A DNA stretch of 64,000 nucleotides, taken from positions 1,080,154-1,144,153 of the forward strand of contig JAJEKV010000074.1 in assembly GCA_021234155.1 (NCBI GenBank). Direction: 5' to 3'. Shown piece by piece: positions 29,875 to 63,114 of this stretch (position 1 is the stretch's first letter; the number at the start of each line of letters is the position of its first letter). The notes under the pieces were generated by a model, which made no database searches, was not told the DNA's origin, and saw nothing but the letters and a program-made list of their open reading frames with translations. This DNA comes from Isoetes taiwanensis. Lineage: Eukaryota > Streptophyta > Lycopodiopsida > Isoetales > Isoetaceae. Position numbers and translations under genes: made by a program.

Positions 29875-30597
29875 TTACATAATAGCAGGACCAAGCGTAA
29901 GGCAAAAAGCGGCATCAGATTCTTTACACAGAGTTTGAGAGAAGGAAAAGGAAGGCTGTGTTCTACTAACCGAAGGCCCAATTCCTAGCGTTAATCTGAG
30001 CTCCGGCAGCACCTCTTCAAGCTCGGGCTTCACAACAGAGGGCTCGTAATGCAGATTTTCTTCGTCTGATCCGACCGGGGCCAAACTAAGCTGGAAATCC
30101 GACGGCCAAATGGGGTCGTCTGGGAAGTTGAGCTTCGCCCTTATTCCTCTGAACTTCACCGCTGCAGCATCGTATGCTCTTGCCGCATCATCTGCTGTGT
30201 CGTATGTTCCCAGCCAAATTCTGGTCGCCTTCTTTGGATCCCTAATTTGTGCAGCCCATTTTCCCCATGGCCTCTGCCTTACGCCCCGAAACTTCTTCGG
30301 CTTCAAAACTTCCGCATTTGCTACTGCTAACGCTGCGTTTCTTTCCCTCCTTTTCCTCTGCCTTGTCTGTTCCCCTGCATTGTAGAAATTTCTATTCAGA
30401 TCACAGATTTCTTGCCCTAAAACAACGATTTTGAACCCTAAAAACAGAGAATTTTTGCCCTTTTCATGTACCACTACCCTGAACAAAGATAACAAATCTA
30501 TAACATGCAGAGAAGTAGTTTCACAGACCTTTAAATTTGGAGAAATCTTCCTCGCTCGTTCCTGATTGCTCAGACGGGCTACAGGAATCGGCGCCAT
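29875..30597 (-). CDS. AP2/ERF-domain transcription factor (ERF type)
   Basis: The product is a DNA-binding regulator of the ethylene-response-factor family. The single AP2 domain spans residues 103-159: [19 protein letters not shown], then [18 protein letters not shown] and KLNFP. WAAQIRD (rather than WVAEIRE) marks the ERF rather than DREB branch. A basic RQRKRRER at 80-86 is a probable nuclear signal. Near the C-terminus LRLTL (200-204) fits the LxLxL form of the EAR repression motif, so it may be a repressor. As drawn the frame is 240 residues. Residues 25-74 look like translated intron: a GT at 30524 and an AG ending at 30375 would remove exactly 150 bp, keep the frame and give about 190 residues. 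The gene ends against a TGAGGG array. Subgroup assignment is uncertain. Confidence 0.92.
30375..30524 (-). other. Possible 150-bp in-frame intron of ERF gene
   Basis: The T-rich segment starts GTGAAACTAC and ends TACAATGCAG. Removing it joins a split codon as tryptophan and preserves the frame. The better-looking donor four bases upstream (GTCTGT) would break the frame. Transcript evidence is needed to decide. Confidence 0.45.
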
Positions 30598-31300
30598 GCT
30601 TAGAAAGCGAAGAATCCATATTACAGGACCAAAGCAAGCGGATTAATGCCGGAATAAAAAGCTATATTGTCAAAATCAAAACAGCTAGAAAGGAGAAGTA
30701 GCTATTCCGGTAGATCAGAAAAATCTATGGTGCGCCTCGTGATCCGAAGAGAGCGTGTTCTGTCTTCTCTGTCTGGAGGCAGCCACCATAGATATAAGAA
30801 GTCGATATCTGACAGGGGAAACGGAGGGCTGGGATTGGTGGGCATTTTTGGGGTGGGCGGATCTGGGCCGTTGGGGGTGTGTGGAAGAACGGGAAAAGGT
30901 AGGCTGGGTATATTCTTGTGTATTCATATAAGCTTTTGCCGCCATTGTAAGTTGTCTTGTAAGTTGTCTTTGAAAGTTCTTTGTAGTTGTCTTTGTAAGT
31001 GGTTTGTAAGTTGTCTTTGTAAGTTGTGTGTTGTTGGGTACCTCAACACTAAGGAAGTTGGGAATATAAGGCCCCCATTTGGTTTGTCGGATACTGCTCG
31101 TCGCCCGGCCGCACTTTTGCGAGCCTACTGTTGCCCACTTACAATTCAATCTCATCGTCCATAGCCCTCCCCCACTTGGCCCCCTGTAGCTATGGCCGCC
31201 ATTGTAGCAATGACCGCCATTTTCGAGCTCTTGGTTCCAATCAATACTGATCCCTACAGTCAAGTCCCCTTTGTCACCTGGTCTTTACGAATCGATGCCG
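30598..31300. other. ERF upstream region with TTTGTAAGTTGTC minisatellite
   Basis: The ERF promoter should lie here. Between about 30949 and 31030 the sequence TTTGTAAGTTGTC is repeated about five times with variants. The long frames on both strands lack recognisable domains and are probably non-coding. A TATA box could not be assigned. Confidence 0.5.
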
Positions 31301-43411: not shown

Positions 43412-44304
43412 TCAATTAGAGTACTCCCAACAACAAATCGTTTTGAAATCCACTCTCAATTATCATTGCATGGAAATACCTGCCTTCTCGTATCAAATTG
43501 ATGAGGCCACACAATTTCAAGCAGCTCATGACAATGATTTTATCTGGCTTGAAGCCAGCAAGCTGCATATTTTCAAAACATCGTAAGGCAAGCTCACCTT
43601 CACCATGCTGGACGTAGCCTGAAAACATTGCACTCCAGGACACTATGTTTTGATAGGGCAAGTTGTTAAACACTTCAATAGACAAATCCAAATCATCATA
43701 TCTGGCGTAAAGATAGACCAGGCTACTTCCTAAAACAATGTCAGATAGCATTCCTCTAGCAATCATATCCTGATGGATATGCCTTCTTACGATTTTGTGC
43801 CTAGATGTTTTCAGAAGAGTTAAGAACGTGAAGCTGTCTGGATCTATGCTCTGATGCAGCATCCTATCATACAATTGAATAGCTGTATTAACATCACCAT
43901 GCTTAACATTGGCATCAATAATAGCATTCCAAGTATAAAGATCAGGTATAGACACATTATAAAAAGCTTGGTTTGCCTCGATTAAAGATCAGGTATAGAC
44001 ACATTATCCAAAGCTTGGTTTGCCTCGATCAAACTTTTATATGAAGCAAAGTTCGAATGAGATGATTAGCCAGGACAGAAATCGTACCTACACCTTGGTT
44101 TGCAATGAGAAATTGAAGTCTTCGTCCAAGCTCATGGTCTCCAATTTTCAAGCACTCCCGCATCATGTCATAGGCAAGGTCTCTTGATATAAACTGCTGC
44201 TCCTTGCAAGATGTGTTCTTATTCTTCATCGGATTGAAGCGCCGATCCCTGCCTTGCCAGTTACCCGGTTGGCTTAAGAAATGAGACGTGGAGTTCTTTA
44301 CCAT
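43412..44304 (-). pseudogene. PPR protein, N-terminal part
   Basis: The start at 44304 begins MVKNSTSHFL, followed by LAYDMMRECLKIGDHELGRR, a usual leader before the first PPR. The main frame 43955-43416 has PPR motifs: IPDLYTWNAIIDANVKHGD, DPDSFTFLTLLK, and NIVSWSAMFSGYVQHGEGEL. The SLVYLYARYDDLDLSIEVF block also fits. Between the two frames a 47-bp tandem duplication (43937-44029) shifts the frame and adds a stop, and a further one-base shift is likely near 44036. The frame fails again at LLLGVL, just before the inserted p24 segment at 43411. The gene is broken at three levels; the 3' part lies at 41190-42018. Confidence 0.88.
43937..44029. repeat. 47-bp tandem duplication in PPR gene
   Basis: AAAGATCAGGTATAGACACA and the following 27 bp occur twice, differing by a few bases. 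The length is not a multiple of three. Confidence 0.95.
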
Positions 44305-53051: not shown

Positions 53052-53645
53052 GTCTACCGGCTGCCACAGAAACCCTAGCCCAGAAAAGTGCCAATTTTAG
53101 CACCAAGCAAAGCCAAACATGCAAGTATCATCATAAATTGGAAAGATCTCTGAACCGTCTTTCCAATGAGCCCAGGTGCACAAATATCTGACACCAGATG
53201 TGTGAGATACAGCCCGTCGAAGTGTTTACTAGCTGCCACATAAACCTTAGCACACAGTCCGGAAAAGTGCCGATTTGAGCCCCGAAAAAAAATCAAGCGT
53301 GCAGTATCATACAACATTGGAAAGGACTCTAAACCAGCTTTCCAAGAGCCCACATAAACAAAACTCTAACGCCAGATTTGTGAGATACAGCCCGTCGAAG
53401 TGTCTATTAGCTGCCACATAAACCCTAGCACATAGCCCGGAAAAGTGCCAATTTGAGCCCCCAAACAAAACCAAGCGTGCAGGTATCATACACCATTGGA
53501 AAGGTCTCCGAACCAGCTTTCCAAGCAGCCACACAAACAAACTCGACACCGATTTGTGAGATACAACCCGCCAAATTGCTCCATCGCACGCCACGAAACC
53601 CTAGCACCCAAAATTTCAAAAGTGCCGATTTGAGCACAAAACAAA
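53052..53645. repeat. Tandem array with ~178-bp monomer
   Basis: About 3.3 monomers are present. The anchor GAAAAGTGCC (CAAAAGTGCC in the last) occurs at 53083, 53262, 53440 and 53617, giving periods of 179, 178 and 177 bp. Monomers share GAGATACAGCCCGTCGAAGT and CATTGGAAAGG. The open minus-strand frames across it reflect the periodicity. It could be a satellite or internal repeats of the adjoining LTR element. Confidence 0.9.
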
Positions 53646-53654
53646 GCCAATGTG

Positions 53655-55286
53655 ATTCCTGTGGGAATATACGCCATAAATACGCATTCTCGGATCCATC
53701 ACCATACAAGTCTACCTAGGTAGCCTTGTATGCCTCGAAGTGGCAGGTGCACATCTAAGCTAATTGTTTAACTTAGATAACCTTAGGATAAGGCCCATTT
53801 CCACATGGCCTTATCCTATTGGAGCAACAACCACACGGGCCTCATCCTAGTGGTGCCACGTGGCATCCCATGTGGACCCACACCTATATGAGCTCTAACC
53901 CTAACCCTAGACCCTTTTCTCCACCCAGCACTCGAACTTCATCCACGTGTCAAAACCCCGCTTTGAGCACCGCTCATCATAGTCTAGCTCGAGCAAAGAG
54001 TCTCCCGAAGGTGCGTGTGATCGAGAGGGAGCAAACCTTCAACCACTTAGGAGCATGGAGACGCCAAGAATGGGAGGAAGCGCCTCGGAGGAGGTAGGTC
54101 GAAGTAGAGTTCATGTTAGTTCATCCGAAGTTAGCACTCCATGGGTTAGTAGTTCATCTAGAGTAGAGCCACCCTAGATCCTTTCGTTGAACATCTTGAA
54201 CCCTAATCAAGGAACCCTAATCTTGAGTTAGCTATGTATGATTAGGTTAAGATGTTCATATGATATTGATATTGATCATGATGTGATGTATGTGATATTG
54301 GTTGATCATGTTGCTCCTCTTGTATTGGGAAGGGGGTAGAGACCTAGGGCCATATGTAGTATGCTCTAGTGTAGATCCCTTAGTTCCTATTAGTTGCTGC
54401 CTGTGCATAGGAACCCACCGGGCTATGGAAGCTATGATATGACTCAGCACTACACAAACGGGCTAGAGGCAAGATGGAGGGAGGATCCCCGCCGAGTGGG
54501 GGCTTCGGGATCCCATAGTGGGCTAGGCTTATGGTCGGTCACTGCTGTGTGGGCGGTCCATGGGTCCTGACACCTCCCCCTGGGCAATGGTGTTGCCCCG
54601 CCTCTCAAGAGTTGCAAGTGTCGCCTTGGCTCTTGTTTTGGGGGTTCGGGCGGGCACGGTCCGTGTGTCGCCACGATTCTCTAGCCGCCTCGCGGAGCCT
54701 CTAGACCCCGGAAGGGGAGATGCAACCCTTCCTACCTCGTCGACCGGGGAGATGCAACCCGGAGTAGTCCCAATGGGTGATGCCATGGGATTGCGTGATC
54801 CCAAGGTTAGAGTCATGCCACAGCCTTGATCTAGCCCATCTCAAGAAAGTATGCACAGGGAGGGGCGGATGGAGTGGTCAACCCTAGCCATTGTCTTATG
54901 CCAGCCCCCGGCCATTGTTATGATTCGATCCGCCTATCTTGAGGCCTATCCAACGGACCGACTACACCTTTACGTGTCCGGGGCCACGGGTAGGAGCTCT
55001 CATGTTTTATAGCATATGATTATGTTCTTTGCATCTATGGATATGCGATTGAGCTACCCTTCGGTAGCATATTGTATTGTATTGCTAGTTCCGACGTGTT
55101 TATGCTTCCTGGTGATAGGAGCCCATAGGGGAAGGGCACGCAAGACACCTTTCACAGAACCCTTCCCCACTTTCTACGGAGATTCCAGAGCGCGGATAGA
55201 CCTGAAGGGCTGTCAAGGTTGTTGAGCCGGATGGGGATTTCTTGTCGAAAAGGCCGGCCTGACATTTATTTAGGTGGAGTGTCACA
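53655..55286 (+). mobile_element. LTR-like block 1
   Basis: The block ends GTGTCACA and is followed by a primer-binding-site-like sequence. It starts near TGTGGGAATA (53651-53660, uncertain). Its right two-thirds are clearly related to the blocks at 59186 and 63115: compare CCACCGGGCTATGGAAGCTA with CCACCGGGTCATAGATGCTA. Estimated length is 1.6 kb, equal to block 2. Similarity to block 2 is moderate and the left third is barely alignable. Confidence 0.5.
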
Positions 55287-55287
55287 A

Positions 55288-55304
55288 TGGTAGTCAGAGC
55301 AATG
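55288..55304 (+). other. Primer-binding-site-like sequence
   Basis: TGGTAGTCAGAGCAATG differs by one inserted G from TGGTATCAGAGC, the usual plant LTR-retrotransposon site complementary to initiator methionine tRNA. It lies directly after the TCACA end of LTR-like block 1. Confidence 0.6.
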
Positions 55305-55843: not shown

Positions 55844-56930
55844 ATGGCTCGAACCAAGCAGACAGCAAGGAAGTACAACGAGCGACCTACACTCTCGATG
55901 GCGCACTTAGCAGGGGGTCGCCATGTCAAGAAGATCCCGGAGCACCTTCGACCTAAGCCGGGGAAGGCCTTCCAAGAAAGCAATGCCGGAAAAACCTACC
56001 ATGATGTCGGTGAGGAGGCACCTAGCAAGAGTCTTCGGCCGCCAGCACCCGTGAGAACCCGGAGAATCCCGCCACTTTGGGCCTTCTATCAACCGAGGTG
56101 GAAGAGCGTGGGAAGAGCAGCCCAAATCTGACCCAGGAGGCGCGGCCCTTCAGCCAAAGAAGAAGGGTAAGGAGAAGGCTGGCAGAAAGTGGCCCCAAGA
56201 GGGCCGCTAGGGAAGAAGAGGGAGAGAGAGCGAGCCGAGGGAGAGGGAGAGAGGCGACCAAGAGAAGAAACGACGCCCTCACGGACCGTCATCAGGATTG
56301 AAGAGCCTCCCCACGGGAAGAAGAGGGAGGTGGAAGAAGGGGAGGGCGACGAGGAAGAAGAGCAGAGGGAGGGTGCTGACCCAAGGCCACCCATCCAAAG
56401 TGGCCCGAGCCACCTAAGGTGCTAAAGAAGCGTAAGGTCAAGGAAAGTAACCGCCGGGCCGGCGAGGAGCGCCGACGCCACCTCACAGACAAGAATACCG
56501 CTTTTTGGACGGTATAACGAATCGGTAATGCCGCCGTTAACGCCCAACGCTACGGGAGGGGGCCGCCAAAGAAGAATCAGCCCTTCCGCCGCCGCCAATT
56601 CCTCGAAAGAAGCCAAAGAAGGTCCACCATGGGCCTAACTCTCCGCACGCCGAAGTTTTTCTGGAGATTAAGCACTTTCAACAGTGCACTAATCTCCTGA
56701 TTAGGAAGAAACCCTTCGAGCGGCTCATGCGGGAAGTAATGCAGGAGTTCGCCACCCACTACAGGTGACGCCGCTACACGGTAGGGTGTTGCGTAGTCGC
56801 GAGGCCGAAGCTAACCCAACTCTTCAGGAAGGAAACCTCGCGCTGATCCACGCTAAGAGGGTAAACCGATGCCCAAGGACATACACTTATTGCCGTGATC
56901 CGCAAAGGAATACCCCTTGAGGATGCAATT
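55844..56930 (+). pseudogene. Histone H3/CENH3-like gene with long broken tail
   Basis: The start ATG encodes MARTKQTARK, identical to the first residues of histone H3, and the frame runs 95 residues to 56131. The sequence after residue 10 is unlike H3. A basic/acidic, low-complexity stretch (56131-56600) follows with frame changes. At 56652-56765 the histone fold resumes: EVFLEIKHFQQCTNLLIRKK then PFERLMREVMQEF. IKHFQQCTNLLI is closer to plant CENH3 (IRHFQKQTNLLI in Arabidopsis) than to canonical H3 (RKYQKSTELLI). RRYT follows in place of RFQS, then LTQLF, NLALIHAKRV (56834-56863), MPKDIHLL (from 56869) and IRKG, all H3 blocks in the right order. At least four one- or two-base frame breaks separate them. 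If functional it would need introns or a corrected sequence; otherwise it is a pseudogene. Confidence 0.75.
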
Positions 56931-58277: not shown

Positions 58278-58682
58278 ATGGCGCCCTCAAGCTTTGTTAG
58301 ATGGTACAACGAGGCCAATCACATTCGTGATTGTCCTCCTGATCAAGTCTTCCATGTCTTTGATCATCTCTTTGATCTCCATGACACTCTGGCTAGAACT
58401 CCATACTACACCGACATCATTTGCCAATATGATCAGCAGATTCTACCCTGGGAAGTTAGCTTGCCACCTAGGGGAGGGAAATGGGTTTCCTTAGACTCTC
58501 TTACCCAAGCCATAGGTGGGGGATCCAGGGGCAAGAGTAGGCTGTGGGATAGAACCAGAAACATGCCAGACTACATGACCTGTAAGCATCATAGGCATAG
58601 ATACCTCTCAGCCCAAGCAGCCTTAGCCTTGTTCATGCAGTGCAGGCGCCAACCAAACCGTGGAGCCAATTCCAACCCTTGA
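58278..58682 (+). CDS. Unrecognised protein, probably element-encoded
   Basis: The 135-residue frame from MAPSSFVRWY has regular composition rich in H, D, Y and W (for example DQVFHVFDHLFDLHDTLAR and HRHRYLSAQAALALFMQCR), which looks like real globular protein. I do not recognise the family. A TATA box and short leader precede it. After the stop a shifted frame continues to 58911 with APDRYSRDRDH, an acidic DYEEEEEENPSWEIREARRM and DKDVLRRDLSQ, so one frameshift probably divides a longer protein of about 210 residues. It lies between LTR-like blocks 1 and 2, downstream of the H3-like gene, so a gag-like protein of an LTR element is one possibility and a captured host gene another. No signal peptide or membrane segment is seen. 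Confidence 0.5.
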   Translation: MAPSSFVRWYNEANHIRDCPPDQVFHVFDHLFDLHDTLARTPYYTDIICQYDQQILPWEVSLPPRGGKWVSLDSLTQAIGGGSRGKSRLWDRTRNMPDYMTCKHHRHRYLSAQAALALFMQCRRQPNRGANSNP

Positions 58683-59185
58683 TTTGGCACCTCTCGACAC
58701 TTCTGAGGCGCCAGATAGGTATTCACGAGATCGAGACCATGCGAGTACCTAATACTACGGCTCCACATCAGAAGCACCTATGTTGCAGATTGAGCAGGAT
58801 TACGAGGAGGAAGAGGAAGAGAACCCAAGTTGGGAGATAAGGGAGGCAAGAAGGATGGAGAGGCGTCTAGCTCTCGACAAGGATGTGCTAAGGCGGGACT
58901 TGAGCCAATAGGTATCACGCCCCTCACCCCAAAGATCATCGACTGGCGAGGGAGTACATTTGCCACCCATCCCCTCAACCTCCCCTATTGCCAAGAGGAG
59001 GGCCTCACCCATCGCGCAGCTCCTAGGCCTAATTGTACAAGAACGTGGTAGTGACTTCATCGACTACTCCTACCAAGAAATTCCAAGGGAAGTAGCCGAG
59101 CCACATTCCTATGGCCGGGGAACTATGTCTTGACATCCGGCATACCAACGTGATAAGGCGCGATGTATCGCCAAGAAGAACCCAT

Positions 59186-60782
59186 TGTGGACGCTCCACG
59201 TATTTATATGCCTTTTTAAGTATAAATACGCGACACGCCACTATGAATAATTAATGGCACACAATTATTCATAAGCTAAGGTTAGCTATGTTAATAATTA
59301 AATTATAAAGGTGGAAACCTAACCTTAAACCCTAATTCGAATTGAAGGCTTAATATAATATTAAAAGGGCCTAAAATACCAAATTAGTTAATATTAGCCA
59401 ACCCGAGTTGCCACCGCCCAAATCGATTGGGCAAGGCGGGGGTTTCCATTTTGACACCCAAATTAGGGCTTTTGTGCCCCAATTCGAATTAGGAGCAATT
59501 GGAGATGGGGAGGAGGAGCAACCGAGGCACCCTTCAAGAAATCGAGATGGAGCCATCCCAAGCCCGATTCGACTGCTAGTCTCAGAGCTTAGTGTGTTAT
59601 TCAGAGGGATAGCGCCCTCTTGGGCATTTGTTGTGTGTATTTCTTCGCTTTCTCTACGTGTTCCCTCTCGTTTTAATTGTGGGAACTAACCCTTGATTGC
59701 AAAGGTGAGTTCTCTTTATCTCTGATTCGATACTTGCTCATGAATGATGGATTGATAGTTCTTTTCATAAGTATTGCTCTTGAAACGGGGGAATTAAGGG
59801 GGGAAGAGACCTCTGAGCCCATGTATTGTAGTATGCTCCTAGATAGAGCCCTGTATTATCCCATTAGATGCGGCCTGTGTACAAGAGACCACCGGGTCAT
59901 AGATGCTATGGATTGGCTTAGCACCAAAGAAGGGACGCAGTGGTGAAGTGGGGGTGGGGTCTTGCACGAACATAAAAGGCTCCTGAGACTCCTACAGTGG
60001 GCTAGGCCTGATAGCCGGTCACGTAGAGGGCCGGGTATGGGTCTGACACTCCCTGGGTGTAGAGGTGTGACCCGTATGGGGCACCTTGCACTTTGAGTAG
60101 ATTTAGGGTGAGTAAGTCGGGTATGGATGCGGGGGTCGCTGATGCGGCACGTATTCTCTAGCTCACCCATGGAACCACTGTGATCCTGGAAGGGGACACT
60201 TCCCTGACCTGCCTCGTCGGACCGGGGCGTCATGAACCCTGGAGTAGGCTCAGCAGGGTGATACCTCGAGCCTGCGTCTCCGGAAGGCTATAGCGAAGCC
60301 ATAGCGTGAATCGACCCATCTGCAAAGTGTGCACAGGAGGGGCGGATGGAGTGGACAACCCTAGCCGATGTTCTATGCCAGCCAGCGCCAGGTTATACCT
60401 CTGTCTGCTGATCTCTTGAGGCCGAGCCGTCAGTCTATCCTCACAGGAGTCTGAACCGAGGTAGAACCTGGGGTTTGGGTGTTTTCCTTAGGATTAGATG
60501 CATATTCTTTGCCGTGGGTATTTGGATGGATGTTCCACCCTTCGTGGTGGTTATTTATATATATATTTGTGCTGTGTGCTAACATGTATTCACGCTTCCG
60601 CGACGTAGGAGCCCCATTGAAGGCGTGGGCCGAATGACCCCTCTGTGTCCTTCACTCGGGCATCTCTCCATAGATGGCCCGGGATAGACGGAGGGCCCTG
60701 CTCACGGCGAGATGGTCGCCATGGGAGGGGAAAGTCCCTCGATGTATGACCGCCGTGGGTCGATATATTCAGGAGCGTCACA
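59186..60782 (+). mobile_element. LTR-like block 2
   Basis: It starts near TGTGGACGCTCC after a purine-rich CCAAGAAGAA and ends near GAGCGTCACA. The part from 59797 is nearly identical to block 3 (63115 on) and related to block 1. No tRNA primer site follows, so it may be a 3' LTR paired with block 1, or a 5' LTR with an eroded primer site paired with block 3. Several one- to four-base indels distinguish blocks 2 and 3. Confidence 0.55.
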
Positions 60783-62757
60783 CCCCATCATTCCGTAAGA
60801 AGAATTTCAGAGATCCAAAGGGTTGTTGTACAAGCGAAGAAGGCCCAAGCTCCAGGCCCGACCAAGGCCCATGAGTATCAGAGAAGCTTCTAGCAGCATC
60901 AACTTGGAGAATGCAACTACCATGTGGAGAGACCACGAGGATCTTATGGCATTAGATATCTTCGGCGAAGCAGCTGGGAGAAGAGGTGCGGGCGCCGGGG
61001 GCGGAACCAAGGGCAAATCACTTAGGTACTATCTTCCGGCCCTTAACCAAGGCCAGATGATAGTTTTCCATAAAGAATTCAGCCCAAGAGGTGAAGAGTC
61101 CGTGGCACTCCTTATAGCACTTTCAAGCTTTTGGGCAAAGAGGTAGAATAGACGTGAAAGTAGACCATGTTATTCTCTTCAAAAAGATCTCAGAGCCCTT
61201 CATGCTCTTGACTTCGCAGGGGCCACCTCGTGGATGCCCACTTGTCGTAAGTGGTGAATGCAACTCCACTCTAACTTCCGCACACCTCAAATGGCAAGAG
61301 CATTGGAAGGAGGATCGGTGGCAAGAATCCTACAGAACGCCGGCAAGGGGATAGGATTGAAGAATGTCAAGAACTTCTTCAAATCTATGAGGAGGCACTG
61401 ATAAGAAAATTGCTTGTCAATTAAGTAATTGTATTGATATTCTCTTCAGTTATTATCATGTACTTTATATATATTAATTAATGTCTTATCATGATCTTAA
61501 CTTATAAGTGGAATTTTCATATGATTTCTTTTATGACTAACAGCAATTCAATTGTAAGCAAGAATGATTAAATGTCTAATCCAAATAACAAGTATTGATG
61601 ATTAATCCTTGCAGCAAGGAACTCCGGCTCAGGCTCTCAGGGCCAAGGCCGTCAACATCAGTGGGTACCCAGAAACCTATTTGGACGTGATCAAGATGAC
61701 AACAACGACGAAATGACGCCGGAAGCAATTAACGCAAGGCTCGTGCAGATGAGGAACCAGATGCATCAGCTGATCCACTGGGCCACCCCATTGATGAATG
61801 CCCAAGAATATGCACATGCTCCACCACCACCTCCACCGCTACCTCAGCAAGGCATCGAGGAAGGTCCACGCCCGGAGGGGCGGGACAATCGTGAAATGCC
61901 GTGAGACGGGAAGAGGAAAAGGAGAAACGTAAGAGCCCAACACCACCTAGCTCCAGCTCATCGCATACCGCATCCAAGACAGCTCTAGCTCGTAAAGTGA
62001 GTCCGACCTCCCACAGTAGAGCCGTAAGCAAGGGAAGGAAGATGATTATCAAAGAAAGTTGACAAAGCTATGAGCAATGTGTGGAAGACTAGGAAGTTGG
62101 CCGGGTTCTGGAAGGACAAAGTCGCATGGAGGCGTAAGCCCGGCTTGATGAGATGGAAGAGTTTGGCAACTCTTATGGCATGAAGGATAAGGATATAGGA
62201 AAGCTGCTCCAGCAAACTTGATAGGGGCAGCTAGAATCGGTGGAAAGGCTATGCAAAGTCCAACAAGCTCAAAAGGAACAGCTTTAGATTCAAGACCTTC
62301 AAAGAAGGCTTCGCGACATTATGTGCCTTAGGTCACATACTAAAGCGCATCCGGCAGCTCTACGATTGAACCAGTGGGTACCTTGTCAAGAGTGTAAGTA
62401 TACTGGGAATTATGTGACTCGTGGGCTCCATGTTCCCTGTCTCGTGAAGGGCAGCAGTTGAAAACTTACATTGAGGGACCGAATAAAGAAATATCAAAAA
62501 GGCTAGTCCGGAGAATCAACCCTAAGTCGATTAAGCGGCCGAGGATAAAGCCATAAGTTTGGAAGAAGCTCCAAAGAACACCGTGTGAGAGACATCGGCC
62601 TTCAAAGGAAAGTCAGGCGCAAGCATCAAAAGGCAAAGACCGAGTAAGCAATCAACAGCAACTCGCCATCAGAGGCCAACAGCAAGGAAGAGCTCAGGGT
62701 AAGAACTTTGGGGACCGTAAGCCGCAGAATGCATCAGGGGGCAGCGTGTTAAAGCGC
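60783..62757 (+). other. Internal sequence with gag-like fragments
   Basis: Frames on the plus strand include 60823-61146 (HEDLMALDIFGEAAGRRGAG and onward), 61154-61354 and 61713-61904 (MTPEAINARLVQMRNQMHQL, then APPPPPPLPQQG). A coiled-coil-like piece (LLQQT, ESVERLCKVQQAQKEQL, IQDLQRRLRDI) lies at about 62200-62320 with stops. They suggest one or two decayed proteins, possibly gag-like, but I recognise no protease, reverse transcriptase, integrase or transposase. The element would therefore be non-autonomous. Confidence 0.4.
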
Positions 62758-62760
62758 ATT

Positions 62761-63082
62761 GGGTGAAAGCATGCTAGGGTGTACCATCTAAAGTACTTTT
62801 TAGGGAGTGTAAAACTACCCAGAAAAGTACTCAGCACTGGGTACTGGGAACTTGCATAAATGCCACAATAAAGAATAAGTTTGAGAGTTAATTCATTTAT
62901 TTTAGTCTCTAATGGTATTGTTATCCTTTACTACTATAGACTGGCATGTTATTGACCTTCAATTCAAAAAAATTCACTTGATTTTAATGGAAAGAAAAAA
63001 CAAAAAGTATCAGTTTTAAAAGTACCCAGTGTAGGTACTTTTGAGGGTTCCAAAAGTGGTACACCATAGCATGCTTTTACCC
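62761..63082 (+). mobile_element. MITE with 16-bp TIRs
   Basis: Inverted ends GGGTGAAAGCATGCTA and TAGCATGCTTTTACCC, extending to 26 bp with two mismatches, flanked by ATT at 62758-62760 and 63083-63085. The 322-bp element has no coding capacity. The 3-bp duplication and GGG ends fit a PIF/Harbinger-type MITE, although that group prefers TWA. Its relative is at 26133-26446. Confidence 0.8.
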
Positions 63083-63114
63083 ATTCTAGACAGCCTGACG
63101 AAAGAGAAGAGACA

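Follow-up and report, generated by a model that had tools for sequence, protein, structure and literature searches.

A decayed histone H3 reading frame in a Ty3/gypsy LTR retrotransposon copy of Isoetes taiwanensis, and its relatives in the same genome

Few known proteins are as conserved as histone H3, and mobile DNA is silenced largely via the H3 tail. The locus studied here lies in a window of 64,000 nucleotides from Isoetes taiwanensis (the whole stretch that was analyzed), where the N terminus of canonical H3 is followed far downstream by a histone fold. Is this a host histone gene, the wreck of one, or part of something else? The initial annotation offered two answers, a divergent CENH3 gene on the one hand and a pseudogene or captured copy on the other. 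Read from its sequence and surroundings, the open reading frame (ORF) is the decayed first ORF of a dead Ty3/gypsy LTR retrotransposon copy. If true, an LTR retrotransposon that keeps a selected H3 would act directly on the silencing system of its host.

The H3 reading frame of the window and its surroundings

The features of the window element are given below in window coordinates, with “type A” and “type B” denoting the two element lineages described in the next section.

53651..55286, + strand: type B 5' LTR (TGTGATTCC...GTGTCACA), about 1.6 kb, from sequence and type A analogy; its 3' end is firm, and its 5' end is inferred from analogy with type A LTRs
55288..55300, + strand: primer-binding site TGGTAGTCAGAGC (equal to TGGTATCAGAGC plus one extra base), from a site scan
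55844..56916, + strand: decayed type B H3 ORF with tail, charged linker, and histone fold, from sequence and tblastn
55844..55873, + strand: exact canonical H3 N terminus MARTKQTARK, from sequence; present in 20/20 fetched type B loci, this tail being part of the query that retrieved them
56646..56916, + strand: H3 fold remnant, from sequence and tblastn
58278..59185, + strand: first part of an ORF2 remnant (MAPSSFVRWYNEANHIRD...), up to the nested LTR, matched in tblastn by part of a type A ORF2 (E = 2e-6)
59186..60782, + strand: type A solo LTR nested inside ORF2 (TGTGGACG...GCGTCACA), 82 to 91% identical to type A LTRs over about 1.0 to 1.2 kb among the matches listed
62108..62206, + strand: gag remnant, 51% identical over 35 residues to the gag of the type A locus L013
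63114..64000, + strand: a further fragment of a type A LTR, truncated where the window stops, from LTR comparison

The ten N-terminal residues had been described as canonical H3, and MARTKQTARK does stand exactly at 55844. The histone fold, expected about 270 codons on, is recognizable from 56646 (HAEVFLEIKHFQQCTNLLIRKKPFERLMREVMQEF...), 267 codons past the start of MARTKQTARK. The frame is broken, as had also been claimed: between 55844 and 56916 we read, in pieces, five in-frame stops and at least three frame changes, and the RRYT of the fold sits after a stop. We searched the genome (1,658,258,908 bases in 1110 contigs) with the first 95 residues of the window ORF and scored the best 150 of 1296 first-look candidates. 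All 150 places matched with E values of 4e-17 or lower, the window being one of them, and most of these matches begin at residue 1. An open sibling ORF, L041, matched the window with a tblastn E value of 2e-59. Because of these 150 genome matches and the L041 match, the window ORF is far beyond chance.

Intact paralogs with the same linker were sought, and they exist. Among the 20 best-scoring type B loci, which were chosen by tail score and include the window, 4 have a single open frame that runs from MARTKQTARK through the whole fold (367 to 375 amino acids), and the long charged linker of the window ORF is also found in the open siblings. These siblings rule out a lone pseudogene. The pseudogene or captured-copy option of the initial annotation was therefore the correct one, in the form of a decayed ORF of a multicopy retrotransposon.

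The window element runs in the order 5' LTR, primer site, H3 ORF, ORF2, and gag remnant. Its primer-binding site contains TGGTATCAGAGC, which we take to be the primer site for plant initiator tRNA(Met). Such a site precedes the ORF in 19 of the 20 type B loci, window included, about 520 to 590 nucleotides 5' of the ATG and after an LTR end reading ...CACA. The ORF2 remnant has a counterpart in L049, downstream of the open type B locus L041. The solo LTR nested within the remnant is flanked by a near-exact 5-bp target duplication, CCCAT, of which the right copy has one extra C. Since type A LTRs are nested in a decayed type B element, movement of type A must postdate the insertion of this type B copy.

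Several other stretches of the window were noted. Copies of a repeated unit of about 179 bp lie at 53125 to 53541, directly upstream of the element, and a MITE-like stretch at 62760 to 63090 adjoins the gag remnant, its ends matching by eye (GGGTGAAAGCATGCTA... and ...TAGCATGCTTTTACCC). On the minus strand, we found a NIF-like phosphatase domain (1633 to 2514; E = 7e-44), an AP2 domain (29875 to 30642; E = 5e-14), and PPR repeats (43416 to 43988; E = 5e-23), each a host-type gene or a piece of one.

Two lineages of H3-bearing elements

The H3-bearing elements are present in many copies and form two lineages, A and B, with the order LTR, primer-binding site, H3 ORF, ORF2, and gag-pol; this order was pieced together from partial loci, no examined stretch spanning both LTRs with a target duplication. 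The H3 ORF is almost certainly encoded by the element. A 24-base DNA pattern for FKTDLRFQ gave 938 exact matches, a count that takes in canonical genes but misses type B as well as mutated copies, while the reversed pattern used as a control gave 0. Open frames of at least 400 amino acids were present in 36 of the 135 noncanonical rows among the best 150 of the PF00125 search, and frames of at least 360 amino acids in 37 of the 150 rows (best 150 of 1296) of the window-tail search. The closest copy pairs compared were 94 to 96% identical, so we do not claim very recent movement.

Type A was characterized from a PF00125 genome search in which 150 of 8705 first-look candidates were scored, with 15 rows being canonical H3 and 135 scoring lower. 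From those 135 rows, 20 type A loci were chosen for long open frames, and their intactness is no rate. The type A protein has a conserved N-terminal domain of about 200 residues of no known family, a linker, and an H3 fold 82 to 89% identical to canonical H3. In 20/20 loci, a long ORF has this near-canonical fold at its end or close to it, and in 17/20 the start pattern was found with no stop (411 to 459 amino acids). Three type A ORFs scanned matched PF00125 with E values of 2e-40 to 3e-42. The N-domain of L024 shares 33 to 91% identity with those of 12 others. ARTKQTARK is absent from the 17 aligned type A proteins, whose N termini are unlike that of type B. For the N-domain and ORF2, Pfam and PDB searches gave no convincing relative (best E values of 0.048 for 2 of 13 members, 0.13, and 0.2), and 3 candidate stretches for the N-domain in viral contigs yielded 0 confirmed.

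The type A LTR (TGTGACGTTCCAAG...GGGAGCGTCACA; TGTGACG...CGTCACA) begins with TGTGACG in 13 of 14 loci examined, with different flanks, and is 1,548 to 1,685 bp long in the 12 of these 14 that were measured. In 15 of the 20 loci, the primer-binding site precedes the fold by 1.6 to 1.8 kb; it lies only far upstream in 3, and 2 have none. Downstream of the type A H3 ORF are ORF2, a small ORF3, and gag-pol. Pfam matches across two frames of one locus, L013, comprise a Ty3 capsid, protease, reverse transcriptase (RT), RNase H, integrase, and a chromodomain; the chromodomain (E = 2.7e-6) is above its cut-off, and the rve core is below its own. L013, the only locus in which the chromodomain was reached, seems to lack ORF2 and ORF3. 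Subfamily A2 (L017, L018, L020 to L022, L026, and L028) has a fold with H87 and L90 and with P121 changed to T. The pairing of H87 with L90, found in 7/20 type A folds, is presumably typical of plant H3.3.

The type B protein, to which the window ORF belongs, has the exact H3 tail, a charged linker of about 230 residues, and a diverged H3 fold (about 60% identity). The fold of L041 matched H3 in a search of solved structures with an E value of 4.5e-31. In phmmer alignments, GGRPPKKQ...KKVHH of type B aligns with GGKAPRKQ...KKPHR of H3, which would by our reading place the linker within the H3 tail, past K9. The sole type B locus extended downstream, L049, lies beside L041 and has ORF2, gag, and protease-RT frames. 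Along 249 residues that extend from protease into RT, these frames share 57% identity with type A; the ORF2 of L049 has one stop, and its pol frame terminates inside RT. ORF2 is conserved, without a Pfam match, and common to both lineages between the H3 ORF and gag (examples are L024:5017-5906, L014:5335-6720, and L049:7174-8268), the identity between L014 and L049 being 22%.

Selection, age of the capture, and comparable systems

We estimated median pairwise dN/dS using only pairs with a dS of 0.05 to 1.2. For type A, the values were 0.043 for the fold (71/190 pairs), 0.127 for the N-domain (37/190 pairs), 0.235 for the linker (40/136 pairs), and 0.099 for the first part of ORF2 (57/171 pairs); gag gave 0.050 (86/153 pairs) and RT gave 0.046 (53/55 pairs, 11 loci). 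For type B, they were 0.118 for the tail (156/190 pairs), 0.149 for the linker (115/190 pairs), and 0.107 for the fold (117/190 pairs). The same codons read in the +1 frame as a control gave 1.2 to 2.3. The fold A value and the openness of 17/20 loci are biased in favor of our reading, since the type A loci had been ordered by their histone score and then chosen for long frames. The fold B value is free of that bias because the score of the tail, not of the fold, decided which type B loci were used. Both H3 folds look to be under purifying selection, with fold A dN/dS as low as that of RT. Such elements would be natural experiments on the limits of H3 change, in which the tail is replaced or is separated from the fold by about 230 residues while the protein is still used.

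Between eight host H3 loci and type A, the proportion of synonymous differences (pS) is 0.91 to 0.93 and the nonsynonymous proportion is 0.09 to 0.11; between subfamilies A1 and A2, pS is 0.85. The capture of H3 looks old because synonymous sites between host and type A are near saturation, and this high divergence speaks against a recent capture. As a clock, this near-saturation is weak, since the eight host H3 loci also diverge among themselves (median pS of 0.65), and we claim no date.

Mobile elements are already known to have captured H3. Fungal hAT DNA transposons carry H3-like (H3L) genes in Pyrenophora tritici-repentis (PMC3538342) and in Pseudocercospora fijiensis and five further genomes (PMC6710886). 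As far as the cited portions of these accounts go, the captured genes were likewise multiplied, to 26 and 784 copies, and the P. tritici-repentis H3L has tail insertions and fully matches neither H3 nor CENH3. The fungal elements have terminal inverted repeats, whereas the Isoetes carrier is a plant LTR retrotransposon with a primer-binding site and gag-pol. The fungal copies are described there as near-identical and recent (P. tritici-repentis) or RIP-inactivated (the others). What sets the Isoetes elements apart is their division into two lineages, the extra domains fused to H3, and the apparent purifying selection on its fold. A fungal-type hAT-H3L transposon does not fit the LTR, primer-binding site, and gag-pol context, and none of the 10 ORFs scanned with Pfam matched a transposase family.

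Chromoviruses of Selaginella and mosses, as presented in the portions of PMC2864245 and PMC3350952 considered here, have the same gag, protease, RT, RNase H, integrase, and chromodomain and TG...CA LTRs. Unlike them, the Isoetes elements place an H3 ORF and ORF2 before gag and have LTRs of about 1.6 kb; those portions do not mention a histone ORF. A Gypsy element of Phalaenopsis with a 2-ODD RNA demethylase (PMC9289625, in part) offers a similarly stable host-derived extra ORF with a different domain. The same source counts 15 extra domains in Gypsy elements of 121 angiosperm genomes; its section 12, which names not all 15, lists no histone. Giant DNA viruses and bracoviruses (the latter with H4) likewise encode core histones as parasites, but these are DNA viruses (PMC9145170); the main text of that review uses the words retrotransposon and retrovirus 0 times. 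The part of PMC4067079 on a Culex Helentron reports broken H4 and H15 fragments. Among the best matches in open-licence PubMed Central, we found no H3 in an LTR retrotransposon or in any plant element. The case of an LTR retrotransposon and of a plant thus appears new in the open literature searched, and a published report could exist, since subscription papers are mostly outside that search and bioRxiv was not covered.

These elements may have been hidden in the host genome, because repeats with plant-protein matches were identified for removal from the I. taiwanensis repeat library, according to the relevant part of the genome report (PMC8566536). Such elements can also be mistaken for host H3 genes.

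Possible roles of the element H3

We surveyed 20 type A folds and 16 near-complete type B folds. R69, R72, R83, C110, H113, K115, R116, V117, T118, M120, K122, D123, and L126 are kept with at most one exception per type. We take these residues to be DNA contacts and the H3-H3' interface. T107 is changed to A in 20/20 type A folds, and K56, K79, and F84 are lost in 16/16 type B folds. As the H3-H3' interface and the main DNA-contact residues are kept, we propose that the element H3 would still pair with host H4 and wrap DNA, and we regard a nucleosome-competent protein as likely. A host H3 transcript would have been captured long ago, most simply once, before the split of A and B, since both share the order H3 ORF, ORF2, and gag. 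Overall, the window holds a dead LTR retrotransposon copy with an H3 as its first ORF, the product of which would probably have paired with host H4 and acted in chromatin.

What such a protein would do for the element is a more tentative matter. The tail is replaced in type A and set far from the core in type B. The non-histone part of the protein could hold the preintegration complex on chromatin, or nucleosomes with this H3 could form on element DNA, their tail resisting host silencing. Of the roles considered, a tether or antisilencing role of this kind would fit best; it seems plausible, if somewhat short of probable. In a bolder version, which strikes us as improbable, the retroelement lineage would long have supplied its own nucleosomal H3 and built element-specific nucleosomes, and the type B ARTKQTARK with an integrase chromodomain (seen only in the type A locus L013) would close a loop in which new copies recognize element-marked chromatin. 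This chromodomain looks like group II by the definition of PMC3350952, without the cage residues Y24 and Y48, and the cited part of that paper leaves the ligand of group II open.

The H3 part could instead be a histone mimic that diverts host chaperones and the writers and readers of K4 and K9, weakening silencing, with the free type B tail as bait. The tail kept in 20/20 type B loci (recovered with a tail-containing query), its low dN/dS, and the very long linker that parts it from the fold fit such a decoy. Type A, however, has the most H3-like fold and no ARTKQTARK, and the DNA-contact residues are kept in both types although a decoy would not need them, and we consider this reading unlikely. 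Slightly less likely again is a particle protein, in which the H3 product would enter the virus-like particle and, with or without host H4, compact or guide the cDNA as a gag accessory. That the H3 ORF lies 3' of the primer-binding site and 5' of ORF2/gag, all on one strand, would suit this, but gag seems to retain a zinc knuckle of its own (zf-CCHC_2 in L013, E = 0.005, below cut-off), and we know of no case in which H3 alone, without H4, compacts DNA.

Type B might also derive from a captured CENH3 by which insertions are directed to centromeres. Type B shares HFQ..TNLLI with one plant CENH3, and the fold tree weakly groups B with two CENH3 rows (86/73, unstarred), of which one is a solved H3/CENP-A chimera. 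Long branches lead to both B and these CENH3 rows, however, and the tree includes no host CENH3. In the same tree, type A forms one clade (98/98) and type B another (100/99); a clade of A plus B was not rejected (p-AU of 0.621), yet it is absent from the free tree. The type B folds align with H3 along 92 positions without any insertion, loop 1 is not extended and has no tryptophan, and the tail is canonical. The best 60 of 177 solved-structure matches to the type B fold are all H3 chains, none of them labelled CENP-A. The divergent CENH3 gene of the initial annotation thus found no support, given the canonical tail, the loop 1 of ordinary length, and the LTR and primer-binding site upstream of the ORF; of the phylogeny it called for, the grouping leaves a CENH3-derived origin as possible, and we judge capture for centromere targeting to be quite unlikely. 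Two genome searches, swamped by H3-like places, did not reveal a host CENH3. The best match to a CENH3-like probe was G000:C930:9401508-9401651, with 69% identity over 49 residues in an open frame of 89 amino acids.

That the H3 ORF is a functionless passenger, hitchhiking with the element, is very unlikely in our view. It would agree with the 16 of 20 fetched type B loci that are not open in one frame and with the inactivated hitchhiking H3 copies of fungal hAT elements (PMC6710886, in part), but dN/dS is well under 1 in both lineages and synonymous divergence is high. An ordinary family of host H3 variant genes without a mobile element, for which about 15 canonical-scoring H3 places among the best 150 scored (8 fetched) might speak, has a negligible chance of being right, being ruled out by LTR ends, primer-binding sites, gag-pol in fixed order, and different flanks for each copy examined.

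The element-encoded H3 would have to be translated from leaders of 545 to 709 nucleotides. These held several upstream ATGs in 10/10 loci looked at, so ordinary scanning translation would be poor.
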